A stretch of DNA of 59,853 bases, taken from contig JADLEX010000032.1 in the NCBI GenBank assembly GCA_020845895.1, positions 1 to 59,853 on the forward strand. Reading direction: 5' to 3'. Both the position numbers and the translations under genes were made by a program. The notes under the pieces were generated by a model, which worked only from the letters and a program-made list of their open reading frames with translations, made no database searches and was not told where the DNA came from. Source of the stretch: Deltaproteobacteria bacterium (GTDB lineage: Bacteria > Lernaellota > Lernaellaia > JACKCT01). Shown in pieces: positions 31,198 to 38,927 of the stretch (the stretch's first letter is position 1; each line of letters starts with the position of its first letter).

Positions 31198-32190
31198 CTA
31201 CGGGTTCGGGGTTGGGTTTGCGGGGACGGCGAAAATCCGCCGCAGCAGTTCGGGGTCGGCCGACAGCGACGCGGCCGCCGCGTACGGGTTCTCGCGCCCG
31301 GCGAGCACGTCGTGGACAATCCGGCCCACGCCGTCGTCGCGCTCGTTCATCGCGCGCATGAGCCCGTCCTCGAGGCGTCCCGCGAGAATCTCGACCATCT
31401 CTTTGTCGGCCGTCAGCTTCCGGCGTCGACGTTCGACGCGGCCCGCCTTGACCATCGTCGTGTGCTCGTCGATGCGCGCGCACAAGTCCTCGACGCCGAC
31501 TGATTTGGTGGCCTGCGTTTTCAGAACCGGGATCTTCCACGCGGAGGGCGGGTTGAGCTCGATCATGCCGACGAGTTCTTTTTCGATGATGTCGGCGCCG
31601 TCGCGGTCGGATTTGTTGACGACGAAGATGTCGGCGATCTCGGTGAGCCCCGCCTTCATCGTCTGCACCACATCGCCGGACTCGGGCACGAGCACCACCG
31701 TCGTCGTATGCGCGACCTCCATGATGTCCAGCTCGGTCTGCCCGACGCCGACGGTTTCGATCATCACGATGTCGAGCCCCGCGGCGTCCATCAGACGCAC
31801 CGTGTCGCGCGTTGAGCGCGAGAGTCCGCCGTGCGAACCCCGCGTGCCGAGCGAGCGGATGAACACGCCCGTATCCTGCGAGTGTCGGTGCATGCGGATG
31901 CGGTCGCCCAGCAGCGCCCCGCCCGAAAACGGGCTGCTGGGATCGATGGCGACAACGCCCACGGTCTTGCCCGCGCGCCGGTAATACTCGGTGACCTTGT
32001 CGACCAGCGTGCTCTTGCCCGCGCCGGGAGGGCCCGTGAATCCGAGGATGTCGGCCCGCCCCGTGTGCGGAAACAGACGCGACATGACCGCCGCGACGTC
32101 GACCGCACGCGACTCGACGAGGCTGATGAGCCTCGCCAGCGCGCGGCGATTGCCGTCCAGCAATCGGGTGATGAGATCGTCCACGCTCAT
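31198..32190 (-). CDS. meaB: Methylmalonyl-CoA mutase-associated GTPase
   Basis: A 330-residue G3E GTPase. The Walker A motif is GFTGPPGAGKSTLVDKV, AIDPSSPFSGGALLGDRIRM is the switch-type motif, MIETVGVGQTELDI is G3 and FVVNKSDRDGAD is G4 (NKxD). MeaB protects and reloads cobalamin in methylmalonyl-CoA mutase. No mutase gene is present here, but an epimerase for the same pathway lies at 41039. ATG 32190 overlaps the mutL stop as ATGA; a longer frame upstream is a mutL shadow. Confidence 0.93.
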   Translation of the reverse strand: MSVDDLITRLLDGNRRALARLISLVESRAVDVAAVMSRLFPHTGRADILGFTGPPGAGKSTLVDKVTEYYRRAGKTVGVVAIDPSSPFSGGALLGDRIRMHRHSQDTGVFIRSLGTRGSHGGLSRSTRDTVRLMDAAGLDIVMIETVGVGQTELDIMEVAHTTTVVLVPESGDVVQTMKAGLTEIADIFVVNKSDRDGADIIEKELVGMIELNPPSAWKIPVLKTQATKSVGVEDLCARIDEHTTMVKAGRVERRRRKLTADKEMVEILAGRLEDGLMRAMNERDDGVGRIVHDVLAGRENPYAAAASLSADPELLRRIFAVPANPTPNP

Positions 32191-34097
32191 TTTCGCTTGA
32201 ACCTCTTCTCGATCTCGAGGAGCGGGATCGTCCATGCCGTTGGTCGCCCGTGGGGGCAACTACCCGGCCCCTTGATCCGGTCGAGGCCGCGCAGAATCTC
32301 CCGCATCTGGGCGGTCGTCAATTCCTGACCCGAACGCACCGCCGAATGGCAAGCGACGACCGACAGGAAATCATCCGCGATGTGGTCCAGCCCGGCGGTC
32401 TGCCCGGACTCCAGAAACCGCTCGACACATTCCCGCACCGCCGCTTCGGCCTCGCCCGCGGACAAGATGGTGGGAATCGCCGTGATCCGGAAGGTCTCGC
32501 CGCCGAACGGCTCCACTTCGATGCCGACTTTAGTCAAAGCCGGGATCGCTTTCAACAAGGATGCCGCCTCCACCCGTCGCAGGTTCAGCGTGATCGGAAT
32601 GAGCTGCGCCTGCACGGGAATGCGCGTCGCGAAATAGTCGCCCTTGAGTTTTTCGAAGAGGATGCGCTCGTGCGCGGCGTGGGCGTCGATCATGACGAGG
32701 AGTCCGCCCGCCTGACGCGTCTCGCACACGATGTAGTTGTCGAACACCTGCCCCACGATCGACATGGGTCCGAAGATCCCCTCGCCGAGGTCGTCGCTCG
32801 TTCGCCCGAAGTCCTCAGCCTCGTCCTCACCGCGTGTCCGGTCCACGACCTCGACCGTGCGCGTGCCGGGCACAGACGGCGGATCGAGAAACGAGGTGGT
32901 CCGCGACATGCCGAGCCGATCGATCGCGTCGATCACGCGGTCGCGCTCGCGAGCCGCTTCGAAGGATTGCGGCGGCGGGGGATCGGTGCCGGCGTCGGAT
33001 GGGCTTTCGGTTCGCGCGAACTCGTCGATCCAGGTCGCGGGCACGACGGGGCGGCCGTCGGTCGTCGGCGCGGACGGCAGGCCGAACGCGGTTTCGGTCG
33101 AGCCGAACCGCTCGCGCAGCACATGGTCGATCGCCGCGACGATGCCCTCGTACACGCCCGACGGCTGGCGGAACCGGACCTCCGACTTCGTCGGGTGCAC
33201 GTTCACGTCCACGAGTTCAGGCCCGATCTCGATGTCGAGCACCACGACGGGGTAACGCCCTCGGAGCACATGGCCGCGATATCCCGTGTTGATGGCGTGC
33301 GTGAGAAGCCGATCGCGCAGGAATCGCCCGTTGCAGTACACGAACAGGTGACTCGCCGTGGAGCGCGTGGTGCTCGGGCTCGACACGAACCCGCGAAGCC
33401 GAAACATCGAGGTTTCATGATCGACGGGGACGAGACCGACCGTCGCGTCCTCGCCCAGGAGCTGCGCGATCCGCTCGGGAAAACTCGCGGCTTCGGAGAC
33501 CTGCAACTGCGTCTTTCCGTCGGCGCGGAGGCGGAAAAACACCCCGGTGCGGGGCAGGGCAAGGCGCGTGAGCATTTCGATCAGGTGCGTAAGTTCGGTT
33601 TCCGGCGAACGCAGGAACTTGCGCCGCGCGGGGGTGATGAAAAACAGGTCCGCGACGGTGATGTCGGTCCCGGCGGGCACACCCTCCTCTGCGACGTCCA
33701 TGACCGTGCCGCCCTCGACGAAAATCCGCGTCCCGATCGCCGCGCCGGGCGTGGCCGTCCGCAGGATGAAACGCGAGACGCTGGCGATGGCGGGGACGGC
33801 CTCGCCGCGAAACCCCATCGTCATGACCGAAAAGAGGTCCTTCTCGCTGCGGATCTTGCTGGTCGCGTGGCGTTCGAGGGCGAGCAGGGCGTCCTCGGGG
33901 CTCATGCCGGCGCCGTCGTCCACCACGCGGATCGACTTTTTTCCGCCGTGCTCGACATCGATGAGAATCCGCCGCGCCCCGGCGTCGAGCGAATTTTCGA
34001 CGAGCTCCTTCACCACCGACGCCGGCCGCTCCACGACCTCGCCGGCGGCGATCATGTTGGCGACGGTTTCGGAAAGGATGCGGATCTTTGCGGTCAT
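32187..34097 (-). CDS. mutL: DNA mismatch repair protein MutL
   Basis: A 636-residue protein. The GHKL ATPase N-terminus shows VVKELVENSLDAGARRI, VVDDGAGM and MGFRGEAVPAIASVS. The transducer domain has FVYCNGRFLRD, DVNVHPTKSEVRF, and a C-terminal dimerisation domain (GQVFDNYIVCE, MIDAHAAHERILFE, CHSAVRSGQEL) follows. Its C-terminus lacks an obvious DQHAxxERI endonuclease core with all metal ligands, so it may be the E. coli-like non-nicking type; this cannot be settled by eye. It is the first gene of the long minus-strand run. Confidence 0.95.
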   Translation of the reverse strand: MTAKIRILSETVANMIAAGEVVERPASVVKELVENSLDAGARRILIDVEHGGKKSIRVVDDGAGMSPEDALLALERHATSKIRSEKDLFSVMTMGFRGEAVPAIASVSRFILRTATPGAAIGTRIFVEGGTVMDVAEEGVPAGTDITVADLFFITPARRKFLRSPETELTHLIEMLTRLALPRTGVFFRLRADGKTQLQVSEAASFPERIAQLLGEDATVGLVPVDHETSMFRLRGFVSSPSTTRSTASHLFVYCNGRFLRDRLLTHAINTGYRGHVLRGRYPVVVLDIEIGPELVDVNVHPTKSEVRFRQPSGVYEGIVAAIDHVLRERFGSTETAFGLPSAPTTDGRPVVPATWIDEFARTESPSDAGTDPPPPQSFEAARERDRVIDAIDRLGMSRTTSFLDPPSVPGTRTVEVVDRTRGEDEAEDFGRTSDDLGEGIFGPMSIVGQVFDNYIVCETRQAGGLLVMIDAHAAHERILFEKLKGDYFATRIPVQAQLIPITLNLRRVEAASLLKAIPALTKVGIEVEPFGGETFRITAIPTILSAGEAEAAVRECVERFLESGQTAGLDHIADDFLSVVACHSAVRSGQELTTAQMREILRGLDRIKGPGSCPHGRPTAWTIPLLEIEKRFKRK

Positions 34098-34667: not shown

Positions 34668-34802
34668 CGGCTCTCCCACGGGACCGGATTGGACCCACGA
34701 AATTTGACCGGTTTCTATCAGATCCCATCCATCATGGCAACCCACGCCCGCAAAAATTTCGGGTCAGGAAAAGCCATTCCCCAGAGATTTTTCCGGAAAC
34801 GC

Positions 34803-34893
34803 GTTCGTTCGGCGCGCCGCTCGCCGCGCCATGTCGGCACGACCTGGCGGCGTCAATGCGGTCATTTGCCTCCCACAACCGTGCCACAGCTAC
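34803..34893 (-). repeat. Degenerate third copy of the subtilase tail
   Basis: Right after the lipoprotein stop at 34895, the minus-strand sequence in another frame still reads VAVARLWEANDR, then RHGAASGAPNE, resembling the subtilase C-terminus VAVAWFWEANDR...RHGATSCAPND. There are many amino-acid changes and the tail stop codon is lost, so this copy is decaying. No lipoprotein follows it. The copy is assigned by reading the protein-level pattern. Confidence 0.75.
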
Positions 34894-34894
34894 G

Positions 34895-35422
34895 TCAGTC
34901 GTCCTCTCCGGCCGGTTGTTCTTCGCAGTCCGAAGGGAACGGCAACATCCGCACGGAGAACGGGCAGACGACATTCATCGCCGACCAAGTGCCCCGAAAA
35001 CGAGTCGGCTTTTCAGACATGATGTCCAAGGAGAACTCGTCGGTGCAGTGTTCGTATGCCACCCCGATTTCAAAAGAGCCGCCGTCCAGTTCCACGAAGC
35101 ACCATTTCTTGTCGGCGTTTTGGCCGAAGACGTAGTGTGGTGCATCGATGCTGGCGTAGGTTCCGCGGAGCCGAAACCGTTTCCGCTCTTCGGAATAACC
35201 GAACTCCAGCACGCCGATGTCGATTCCGGCCTCGCTGCACAACTCGCCATAGGACTCGTATTCGCCGCTCGTCAAATCGTCGAATTGTGGCGTTGACTCG
35301 CAGGGAGCGGGTTTGTCGTCCTGAGAATCCGTACCGTTGTCGTCGCAATCGCACGCAGCGAAGCAAAGGGCGATGGCGAAGAGCAAAAACCGCCATGCGC
35401 AAACGCCTGGTTGGTTCTTCAT
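34895..35422 (-). CDS. Small lipoprotein B, paralogue of the gene at 35551
   Basis: A 175-residue lipoprotein. The signal peptide ends in LCFAACDCDD; Asp right after the lipidated Cys is the classic signal to stay in the inner membrane in enterobacteria. The mature domain (about 130 residues) is shared with lipoprotein A: FDDLT, CSEAGIDIGVLEF, RLRGTYASIDAP, WCFVELDGGSFE and the identical end CEEQPAGEDD. The pattern suggests a beta-rich fold with two disulfides. ATG 35422 has GGAGGG upstream, and that Shine-Dalgarno lies within the duplicated tail module. Function unknown. Confidence 0.78.
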   Translation of the reverse strand: MKNQPGVCAWRFLLFAIALCFAACDCDDNGTDSQDDKPAPCESTPQFDDLTSGEYESYGELCSEAGIDIGVLEFGYSEERKRFRLRGTYASIDAPHYVFGQNADKKWCFVELDGGSFEIGVAYEHCTDEFSLDIMSEKPTRFRGTWSAMNVVCPFSVRMLPFPSDCEEQPAGEDD

Positions 35423-35430
35423 TGCTTTTT

Positions 35431-35550
35431 CCCTCCTACCGGTAATACAGGTAGGTGGGATCGTTCGGCGCGCAGCTCGTCGCGCCGTGGCGGCACGGTC
35501 CGTTGGCGTCGGTGCGATCGTTCGCCTCCCAGAACCACGCCACGGCGACT
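35431..35550 (-). repeat. Second copy of the subtilase C-terminal tail with Shine-Dalgarno
   Basis: The minus strand reads VAVAWFWEANDRTDANGPCR and continues to the same end (TYLYYR, stop, GGAGGG) as the subtilase gene. Over 116 bases it differs from the subtilase copy (36079-36194) at about 10 positions. Nine are synonymous in the subtilase frame and one changes D to N. It lies in a frame shifted against lipoprotein A, starting one codon phase after its TGA. This looks like a retained coding tail and not random duplication. Confidence 0.85.
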
Positions 35551-36072
35551 TCAGTCGTCCTCTCCAGCCGGCTGCTCCTCGCACTCCGCCTCGCTGTTGT
35601 CGAAGCCGAATCGACACAGCACGTGTTCTTCATAGGAGGAGGGAGAATCACTCTTCGGGATCTCATTCAAGACGGCAAACGAAACCCCTTCGAGACACTT
35701 ACGATATTCTATGGCTGCTCGAAACGGTCCGTCGACCAACTTCATATAGCATCGCCGTCCCTTTGGGTCGGTGACAGGATACAGGAAGGCTCTCGCGTCT
35801 GCCCCGTCGAAGGTTCCTTCAAGTTCATATCTTTGGAAATCCGCGGAATATCGGGCAGCAATAACTTCGATACCTACTCCCGCTTCGACACATGCCACGG
35901 CGGACTCGTTCAACTCAACCTCGACCGTGAGATCGTCGAAAACAGCCACCGAACCGCAAGGCGGGATTTTCTCCGATTCTGCGTCCTCATCGGCACCCCG
36001 ACAGGTGACGAAGACAAGTGCTAATATTACGAAGGCGACGACGCTGCAGCGAATTCGAATGACGTCAGTCAT
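35551..36072 (-). CDS. Small lipoprotein A, downstream of the subtilase
   Basis: A 173-residue lipoprotein. The signal peptide runs to ALVFVTCRGAD. The mature part resembles lipoprotein B: FDDLT, CVEAGVGIEVIAARYS, YELEGTFDGADARAF, RCYMKLVDGPF and the identical end CEEQPAGEDD. It starts 11 bases after the subtilase stop, with GGAGGGAGAGTC in front of ATG 36072, so it belongs to the same transcript. Position next to a protease suggests an inhibitor, chaperone or surface partner, but no such family is recognised. Confidence 0.78.
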   Translation of the reverse strand: MTDVIRIRCSVVAFVILALVFVTCRGADEDAESEKIPPCGSVAVFDDLTVEVELNESAVACVEAGVGIEVIAARYSADFQRYELEGTFDGADARAFLYPVTDPKGRRCYMKLVDGPFRAAIEYRKCLEGVSFAVLNEIPKSDSPSSYEEHVLCRFGFDNSEAECEEQPAGEDD

Positions 36073-36078
36073 GACTCT

Positions 36079-36194
36079 CCCTCCTATCGGTAGTAGAGGT
36101 AAGTGGGATCATTCGGGGCGCAACTCGTCGCGCCGTGGCGGCAGGGCCCGTCGGCGTCGGTGCGATCGTTCGCCTCCCAGAACCACGCCACGGC
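36079..36194 (-). repeat. First copy of the tail module (end of subtilase gene)
   Basis: This stretch codes for the last 37 residues of the subtilase, its stop and the Shine-Dalgarno of the next gene. It is repeated at 35431-35546 (about 91% identity) and, strongly changed, near 34803-34893. Confidence 0.85.
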
Positions 36195-38927
36195 TACGCG
36201 CCGCGTCCCAGCTCCCCCGCTGCCATTCGGAACGCTCACGCCCGTGATCTCGATCTTGTAGCACCGGTTCGTCACGAAGTTCGAGAAATTCTGGTGCAGG
36301 CCCGTCACCGAGTTGTCGCCGATGAAGTGCAGCCAGTTGCCCTTCGTGTACTCGTCCGGGTCGGTGCTCAGGCTGTTCTGGGAGGCGATCGGGAAATAGA
36401 CCCCGCCGCAGTTCGTGCTGATCGTCCGCTTCACCGTCGCTTGAATTTCGGCCGGATAGTTGTTGTAGAAGGGTTCGTCCCAGTACACGAAGATCTTGAG
36501 CAGCGAAGCCGCCGAGGGAATCGGATTCCCCTGCGCGCCCGGTTCGGCATTCAGGTTCATGGAGTAGGTGACGCCCGTCTGCACCTCGGGGATCACGACC
36601 GTGTTCTGAAACCACGGCGCATCCATCCCCGCCTCGGTGAACAGCCGCGCGTGCAGCCGCCCGGCGCCGTAGGTCGAGTCTCCGTGCCCGACGTAGTCCG
36701 CTCCGAACAGCGGCGTCTCGGTCTGGTCGATCATGCCGTCGCCGAAGTTCAGGACGTTCGCCACCACACGCACTCGATCGGACGCAAACGACGACCCGTG
36801 TCGACGCAGGAAAAAGTCCTTCATCACGGCGAAGACGCCCGCCACCGCCGGCGTGGCGGCCGAGGTGCCGGTGAACCTCTCGTAATAGATGCTCGCGTCC
36901 TGCCAGTCGCCGAGCCCGTGGTCGCAAGCGTGATTGTCGAAATCCTCGTAGGATTCCCACTCAATGCACGCATTCTGCGGATCTTGATTCGGCGATCGGA
37001 CCCAGTAATGGTCGTTGCGAATCAGGGTGCCGTTGTCCGGGTTCGCGTCGCAATCGATTCCTGAGTTCCACCAGTTGGTGTCCGCATATCGGTTGTGCTC
37101 AACCGGGTTCGCGCCGTCGCGGTCGACCTGCGGCGTGTGGACCATGCCGACGTAGGACGCGATGTTGGGTTTGCGATAGCCTTGCTGGGTGACACCCCGG
37201 CTGCTGTAGCCGGTGATGAGGCTGACGTCGCGGAAGCGTTGGGGGTTCCACAGCGTATCGGTCGTCGCCGCCGTACGGGGATGGTCGATGTATTCGATCG
37301 CCCCGACCGTGACGACGTAGGGCGAGTTGCCCGGCGAGCCGATGGAGTTCTGCGGCGCTTCATCCGGGCACTCCTGGTTCCCATTGCCGGCGGCGTTGAC
37401 GACGATGATCCCCTCTTCGGCCGCCGTATTGGCGATGGCGCTCAGGGCGTCGTTCGCGCCCCACTGCTCCTCGTTCGGGCACGCGCCGTTGGCCGTGCCG
37501 ACGCGCGATCGACTGTAGACATCGAATCCGAGTTCGATGACCTTTTCGAAGGCGTGAATGTTGTTCTCCTTCTCCGACGAATGCATCATCGCGATCAACG
37601 CCTCGGGTGCTGCGCCGGTGTAGTGCGCGCGAATGCCGGATGGCACGCCGGAGTCCTGCCCGTCGGTCAAATCCGCCGCCGCGACGCCCGTGGACCACAT
37701 GGCGTGTTGCGGAACGTTGCCCGAGCACAAAATGGTCTCGGGAAGATCCTCACCGCAGTACGGCGGAAACACGTTGTCGCAGCTAAACGTGTAACGCACG
37801 CGGGAGAACGCCCCCGACCCGTCGAAAAACGCGCGGTGTTCGTCGTCGAACTTCGCCCGTTCGTTGATGCCGATGATGATGCGACCCGTGTACGATCCGT
37901 CCGAACCTGTCCCGATCCCGGTATACCCCGCCAAATGATGCTGATTGATTCCCAGCATCCGCGCATTGTCGAGAAGCGTCTTGTAAGGCAGGAATACGGC
38001 GTCGAGGGTGTTCGAAATGTCCGCGTCGCGCTCTTCGCCCATCGCCTCGATGTGCGCGATGTTGTCGATCGCAAGAACAGCATCGATGCTCCCGGCGGGA
38101 ATCCGCACCGAGGCGGCGTTGATCGCCCAGTATTGGCTCGCGATCTCGACTCCGGCTCGCTCGAGCGCGTCCACCGCGGGTGCCTGCGCCTGCCATGCAT
38201 ATTCTTTCTGCTCTTCGACGGCCTCACCGCGCTCCTGCCGAGCGCCTTCGACGGCTTCCGGACCGAAGTCCTCCCATGCCGACGGCAATGGCCCGAGATC
38301 GAGATCGAACTTCTCGCGAAATACGATGATCGCGGGAATGATGTCCTTTTCAGCCATCCCGTGAATTTCCTCGTACCATTTCGGATCGATTCTCGGAACT
38401 TCAACCGGCGCGTAGGCCGGGTGCAGCAGCTTCTCGATTTCCTCGTCGGTGTATTCGAGTTCGCGCAGGTACTCCTTCATTTCTTCATTGGTTCGACGCA
38501 CGAAGGAAACCTGCTCCAGCGCATTCCCCGCCACGAATCGACCGTCCTCAGCCGAGTAACTGAAGTTCCGCCACGCGAAGAGGCGTCCATTCTCGTCGTA
38601 AGGATTTTCCTCGGAGTATTCGACCGGCTGATCGAGCGCGTAGTCGGGATTACCGATTTCCTGTTCATCCACGAGGCGATTGTTGTTGTCATACACGGTC
38701 CAAGACGCATAACGGATAGCGGTTTCCACCTGTTCGTCACTCGCTACCGAAGCGAGAAAACTGAGGGCGGAAAAAAGCAGGGTTAGGACGATCCCAATCG
38801 CAATCGGCCGAATGCCCCCCCCCCCTTTGCTATTTATTCCGGCATTTTCGGAATTTCGTGTTCTCTCGTCGTTCTCACGACCTGCGTTTGCCCATGACAT
38901 CCAACGCACCGTGATTCGTCGTTTCAT
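36084..38927 (-). CDS. Subtilisin-family (S8) exported protease, atypical, with poly-G tract
   Basis: A 947-residue protein. The start has GGAGGG seven bases upstream. A 34-residue charged N-region is followed by GGGG and a membrane/signal helix (IAIGIVLTLLFSALSFLAS). An I9-like prodomain spans about residues 195-300 (VDALERAGVEIASQYW). The S8 domain holds His408 in QHAMWSTGVAAADL, the oxyanion Asn515 in NAAGNGNQ and Ser689 in FTGTSAATPAVAGVFAV. At the Asp position the sequence is RIIIGINERA, where Asn355 replaces the expected Asp, so activity is doubtful. A C-terminal beta-sandwich ends in the tail copied twice downstream. The stop is 11 bases before lipoprotein A. Confidence 0.88.
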   Translation of the reverse strand: MKRRITVRWMSWANAGRENDERTRNSENAGINSKGGGGIRPIAIGIVLTLLFSALSFLASVASDEQVETAIRYASWTVYDNNNRLVDEQEIGNPDYALDQPVEYSEENPYDENGRLFAWRNFSYSAEDGRFVAGNALEQVSFVRRTNEEMKEYLRELEYTDEEIEKLLHPAYAPVEVPRIDPKWYEEIHGMAEKDIIPAIIVFREKFDLDLGPLPSAWEDFGPEAVEGARQERGEAVEEQKEYAWQAQAPAVDALERAGVEIASQYWAINAASVRIPAGSIDAVLAIDNIAHIEAMGEERDADISNTLDAVFLPYKTLLDNARMLGINQHHLAGYTGIGTGSDGSYTGRIIIGINERAKFDDEHRAFFDGSGAFSRVRYTFSCDNVFPPYCGEDLPETILCSGNVPQHAMWSTGVAAADLTDGQDSGVPSGIRAHYTGAAPEALIAMMHSSEKENNIHAFEKVIELGFDVYSRSRVGTANGACPNEEQWGANDALSAIANTAAEEGIIVVNAAGNGNQECPDEAPQNSIGSPGNSPYVVTVGAIEYIDHPRTAATTDTLWNPQRFRDVSLITGYSSRGVTQQGYRKPNIASYVGMVHTPQVDRDGANPVEHNRYADTNWWNSGIDCDANPDNGTLIRNDHYWVRSPNQDPQNACIEWESYEDFDNHACDHGLGDWQDASIYYERFTGTSAATPAVAGVFAVMKDFFLRRHGSSFASDRVRVVANVLNFGDGMIDQTETPLFGADYVGHGDSTYGAGRLHARLFTEAGMDAPWFQNTVVIPEVQTGVTYSMNLNAEPGAQGNPIPSAASLLKIFVYWDEPFYNNYPAEIQATVKRTISTNCGGVYFPIASQNSLSTDPDEYTKGNWLHFIGDNSVTGLHQNFSNFVTNRCYKIEITGVSVPNGSGGAGTRRVAVAWFWEANDRTDADGPCRHGATSCAPNDPTYLYYR
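38815..38825 (-). repeat. Homopolymer of 11 G in the subtilase reading frame
   Basis: On the coding strand AAA is followed by 11 G and then CATT, coding SKGGGGIR at residues 33-40. Eleven G keeps the frame; 10 or 12 would break it before the export helix. Confidence 0.9.

Follow-up and report, generated by a model that had tools for sequence, protein, structure and literature searches.

A short tandem array of protease gene ends and lipoprotein genes behind a subtilase gene

The window, the whole 59,853-nt stretch of contig JADLEX010000032.1 that was analysed (assembly GCA_020845895.1, a single draft assembly of 171 contigs), carries on its minus strand a subtilase gene whose 3' end recurs twice behind it. 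The subtilase, which ends in the reference tail T1, is followed by lipoprotein A, the orphan tail T2 with a Shine-Dalgarno sequence, lipoprotein B and the decayed tail T3 (Table 1). The first-pass annotation of this DNA had described a recurrence of the subtilase tail, its stop codon and the next Shine-Dalgarno sequence after lipoprotein A and, in decayed form, after lipoprotein B. The repeat search bears this out with three minus-strand copies of a 120-nt repeat at 36078-36197 (T1), 35430-35549 (T2, 91%) and 34774-34893 (T3, 67%), which are spaced by 656 and 648 nt. T2 and T3 attach to the 3' end of a lipoprotein gene at the same base position and have the same frame relation to the preceding lipoprotein. 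The flanking genes tested are housekeeping genes or encode other secreted proteins, and no recombinase or transposase is found among them. The mismatch repair gene mutL (window 32187-34097) lies near the array, probably by coincidence.

Table 1. Features of the subtilase-lipoprotein locus, in window coordinates
Feature	Position	Strand	Basis
Subtilase S1, 947 aa, Peptidase_S8	36084..38927	-	ORF + Pfam PF00082, E=6.8e-17
T1, reference tail: last 37 codons of the subtilase + stop	36084..36197	-	Repeat search, codon alignment
Lipoprotein A, 173 aa, with a lipobox-like signal peptide and a conserved Cys in addition to the lipid Cys	35551..36072	-	ORF, alignment
Lipoprotein A 3' end (CEEQPAGEDD + stop), common to lipoprotein B	35551..35583	-	Sequence
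T2, orphan second tail, +1 frame relative to lipoprotein A	35436..35549	-	Repeat search, codon alignment
Predicted RNA hairpin covering the lipoprotein B Shine-Dalgarno	35430..35460	-	-16.4 kcal/mol; T1 equivalent -6.5
Lipoprotein B, 175 aa, 33% identical to A	34895..35422	-	ORF, alignment
Lipoprotein B 3' end (CEEQPAGEDD + stop)	34895..34927	-	Sequence
T3, decayed third tail, alignable over ~30 codons	34804..34893	-	Repeat search, codon alignment

In a comparison of the T2 region with its whole own genome, T1 is matched at E=2e-42 and T3 at E=1e-27, and all other matches have E>=0.03. Therefore, the tail repeat is not a chance resemblance and is confined to this locus in its own genome. A single draft assembly in 171 contigs could in principle generate tail copies from mis-joined reads of one tail. 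However, pairwise comparison of the three tails gives 7-21 differences over 90 sites, each tail sits between different genes, and an orphan tail is also present in another genome of the phylum (G002). An assembly artefact is thus extremely unlikely.

The subtilase belongs to the Peptidase S8 family, given its PF00082 score of 62.1 bits against a cut-off of 21.8 and a GTSAA sequence at residues 687-691 that conforms to the GTSxA serine motif. Within the catalytic triad, His408 and Ser689 are conserved, and the Asp position is occupied in a hand alignment by Glu356, which is invariant across three homologues. Glutamate apparently replaces the S8 catalytic aspartate in this subtilase group, where the position reads GINE, GISE or GVLE (window 36084-38927, L023 2249-4972 and L025 2422-4839); the diverged subtilase relatives in G005 retain the aspartate.

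Lipoproteins A and B match no Pfam family and are only 33% identical as proteins, save for a shared 10-residue end, CEEQPAGEDD. The codons for this end contain four differences, and all four are synonymous, as the annotation had stated. Along the array, DNA identity forms a mosaic that was absent from that account: it is ~88-90% in the tail, drops to ~40-55% in the lipoprotein body and rises to ~80% again in the lipoprotein 3' end and the next tail. GC3 is low in lipoprotein A (0.58), compared with 0.85 in mutL and 0.78 in the subtilase. An AlphaFold model of lipoprotein B, with lipoprotein A as sole partner, is poor (pLDDT 55). Judging from the conserved pairing of the two genes, the protease probably has the lipoprotein as its partner at the cell surface or in the periplasm.

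The exact codon alignment of T1 and T2 (37 codons and the stop) reveals 11 differences in 114 bases, of which ten are synonymous and one is nonsynonymous (GAC/AAC, D->N), leaving the two proteins different at 1 of 37 residues. The synonymous excess that had been read from the sequence stands, although the original count of about 10 differences in 116 bases, nine of them synonymous, is replaced by these figures. The excess also persists against a simulated null in which T1 is constrained, T2 evolves neutrally and divergence runs until 11 differences have accumulated, at transition/transversion ratios (kappa) of 1-4. This null yields 6-7 changed residues on average, and one changed residue or fewer has P<0.001 over the whole kappa range. 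If both copies are constrained at omega 0.1 in the simulation, the T1/T2 pattern becomes ordinary (P 0.11-0.18). Simple drift as silent DNA does not account for T2, whose protein is too little changed for it to have been silent throughout the time since it split from T1. When T3 is used as the outgroup, four changes, all of them synonymous, fall on the T1 lineage, and two synonymous changes and one nonsynonymous change fall on the T2 lineage; four more synonymous T1/T2 differences are unpolarised because T3 is no longer alignable there. Part of the synonymous signal arose on the working protease's own branch. T3 has changed in both ways: within codons 1-30, 19 codons have changed, 9 of them nonsynonymously (neutral P 0.04-0.08).

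Is T2 still translated? If so, by a +1 frameshift from lipoprotein A or by re-initiation, the product would be either the lipoprotein extended by a protease tail or a separate small peptide. In favour of this, no stop codon closes the T2 frame across the 3' end of lipoprotein A, T2 and T3 stand in the same frame with respect to the lipoprotein, and T2 has kept its protein sequence. However, sequence and established knowledge indicate that a +1 slip at GAC-TGA would not allow re-pairing, given that the P-site GAC would need to pair with ACT. T2 also has no well-placed ATG, and the nearby GTG is located ~15 nt behind GGAGAGG, too far for a normal start. Furthermore, T3 has decayed in the same arrangement. 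The frameshift from lipoprotein A that the first-pass annotation had envisaged thus finds neither a plausible slip site nor a good start, and translation of T2 appears very unlikely.

Gene conversion had been suggested as another means of keeping T2. In its simplest form, a [tail + lipoprotein] unit was duplicated in tandem, and the silent tails were kept alike only by conversion from the neighbouring protease end. The mechanism is common in bacteria, the spacing between the copies is short, and T1 and T2 share a 42-nt identical run (P=0.02-0.06) that hints at a conversion or crossover tract. The formal two-segment breakpoint test on T1 and T2 is not significant (P=0.17-0.22), and support for a gene-conversion tract between T1 and T2 is weak. 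Moreover, conversion resets T2 to identity, and later changes in a silent copy should be largely nonsynonymous, yet 10 of the 11 differences are synonymous (P<0.001). Plain duplication with conversion is therefore an unlikely origin of the array.

The comparison covered seven genomes of the phylum, one genome per species. Strong subtilase matches are present in three of the seven (G000, G002 and G005), and the subtilase-lipoprotein pair recurs at other loci of the phylum. The window's own genome contains two further pairs, C50 and C94. At C50, the subtilase is 44% identical and a lipoprotein gene lies directly behind it; this gene is followed by a 30-bp remnant that matches its own Shine-Dalgarno sequence and start (local P about 1e-4; genome-wide E=0.007). 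Two diverged pairs are present in G005. At G005:C25 (L026 2103-5765), a subtilase split by a stop or frameshift precedes two lipoprotein genes in tandem, which are 98% identical over their first 47 bases and the second of which is a broken pseudogene. In G002, from another genus of the same family, a subtilase 3' part is followed by a lipoprotein and then by an orphan tail that matches most of the first 35 codons of a 57-codon tail query. The orphan tail differs from the resident tail at 8 synonymous and 5 nonsynonymous codons and by an in-frame codon loss, again a synonymous excess that rejects neutral divergence (P 0.003-0.009). Taken together, the G002 orphan tail, the C50 remnant and the tandem lipoproteins of G005:C25 indicate that duplication of a [tail/Shine-Dalgarno + lipoprotein] unit is recurrent at these loci. 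No tail remnants are found behind the lipoproteins of C94, G005:C28 and G005:C25, and scans of genome contig and viral contig collections returned no relatives.

Two side observations concern the same genomes. The G002 piece lies between two 88%-identical segments (L024 3721-4354 and 5755-6386) that we take, from reading their translations rather than from a database match, to be a bioF end and a bioC start; it looks as if it was integrated by a single crossover, or it may be an assembly chimera, as the G002 assembly is 77% complete and contains frameshifts. G001 (L058 2339-5370) and G004 (L059 1395-5309) carry tandem runs of Asp-rich lipoproteins with a domain that matches the lipoprotein A/B profile, and neither genome has a strong match to this subtilase group.

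The first-pass annotation had proposed a comparison of related genomes for the same module with intact second proteases. Traces of further copies are seen in the G002 orphan tail and the C50 remnant, but an intact second protease lies directly behind a lipoprotein at none of the loci examined in the seven genomes. Such a protease would have belonged to an array of the order protease-lipoprotein-protease-lipoprotein, in which the inner protease was recently deleted down to T2. Two functional proteases should produce a synonymous excess of the kind seen between T1 and T2, and the pair of subtilase and lipoprotein is a conserved unit at other loci. Over 37 codons, a displaced tail and a second full protease that was recently cut to its tail predict nearly the same pattern. 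However, the position of the join to the lipoprotein 3' end is identical to the base in T2 and T3, and two independent deletions are unlikely to have ended there. Moreover, tandem proteases occur at none of the loci examined. We thus regard the loss of an inner protease as rather unlikely.

Our preferred explanation, with about even confidence, is a short tandem array whose unit is [protease 3' end + downstream lipoprotein] and which has been reshuffled by ordinary homologous recombination through the tails. The array contains a duplication and a junction common to lipoprotein A-T2 and lipoprotein B-T3. Because its position is the same in T2 and T3, this stop/tail junction is most likely old and copied rather than made twice. 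An old duplication would first have joined a lipoprotein stop to the middle of a protease tail, and the starting state would be a protease and a lipoprotein followed by an orphan tail, arranged as in G002. The tails would then serve as ~110-bp homology for RecA-type unequal recombination within and between related chromosomes. For the following step, we infer an exchange with another allele, or cassette exchange. An incoming allele with lipoprotein A would have recombined at two places, upstream within the protease gene and downstream where its own orphan tail paired with the resident protease end, and its insertion would have displaced the resident end (now T2) and lipoprotein B downstream. 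T2 is probably this recently displaced former end of the protease, and T3 would be an older retired end that has decayed. The recent retirement of a coding end would explain the almost purely synonymous differences of T2 from T1. As a result of such exchanges, the protease tail would remain constant and the lipoprotein behind it would vary. Displacement is favoured by the presence of three in-register tails with two lipoproteins and by the 91% identity of the tails, compared with ~40-55% DNA identity of the lipoprotein bodies. Against displacement, the seven genomes, one per species, include neither an allele that lacks lipoprotein A nor a donor locus, and the G002 piece may be a chimera. In addition, a single crossover is expected to leave a breakpoint between T1 and T2, yet the breakpoint test is not significant.

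T2 may also act at the RNA level. T2 and its flanks are predicted to be more stable than dinucleotide shuffles (z -3.2), and T2 folds better than its synonymous recodings (P 0.002-0.02), whereas T1 does not. The last codons of T2 form a predicted hairpin of -16.4 kcal/mol over the lipoprotein B Shine-Dalgarno sequence, compared with -6.5 for the T1 equivalent. Shine-Dalgarno burial does not differ significantly from that of synonymous recodings at any locus, with T2 the lowest (P 0.08). The predicted fold gives a weak hint of translational silencing of lipoprotein B, a lead rather than a result. In an extended version, the locus would be a silent-cassette lipoprotein system: only the lipoprotein directly behind the translated protease tail would be made, and displaced lipoproteins would be locked by an untranslated-tail hairpin over their Shine-Dalgarno sequence until tail recombination returned them to the place behind the protease. 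We consider this version, which draws on one locus and several tests, decidedly improbable.

In CDI and Rhs loci, displaced 3' ends take the form of orphan cdiA-CT/cdiI and rhs-CT/rhsI modules (PMC4927057). Like these modules, the present locus combines a displaced 3' end of a large secreted-protein gene with a small downstream gene in the same orientation in a decaying array, as T2 and lipoprotein B are followed by T3, and homology in the displaced piece could permit recombination with the main gene. However, the displaced end is not a different toxin domain, given the single residue that separates the T1 and T2 proteins. In CDI, the C-terminal toxin domain is variable, whereas here variation lies in the lipoprotein behind the displaced end and that end itself is constant. 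The locus also differs in providing no evidence of toxin or immunity functions, and the neighbours tested include neither an integrase nor a transposase. Because it lacks the defining feature of CDI/Rhs modules, a different toxin tip, it should not be classed with them.

Tandem arrays of paralogous lipoprotein genes, as observed here, also constitute the Staphylococcus aureus lpl clusters (PMC4470592). In the literature, no paper that combines subtilase, lipoprotein, tandem duplication and gene conversion was found. The lpl clusters are not known to contain an interleaved protease tail. Gene duplication-amplification by unequal crossing over generates tandem direct repeats with a shared junction, and the surplus copies decay. 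The present locus likewise has tandem direct repeats, a shared junction and a decaying surplus copy, but simple amplification keeps the whole unit similar, whereas here conserved ends accompany deeply divergent gene bodies. In general terms, the locus comes closest to tandem duplication-amplification plus recombination at a secreted protease-lipoprotein operon. The locus is most likely a small recombination-driven lipoprotein array and not a new kind of machinery.

If the displacement reading is right, the displaced-3'-module logic of contact-dependent toxins would extend to a pair of protease and lipoprotein from a phylum that is sparsely sampled, and the roles of the variable and the constant part would be swapped. 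Orphan gene ends whose signature is cleanly synonymous may also be readable as a record of recent recombination rather than of hidden translation. The broader message is modest, and the locus is mainly a clear case of the growth of a tandem lipoprotein array behind secreted proteases.
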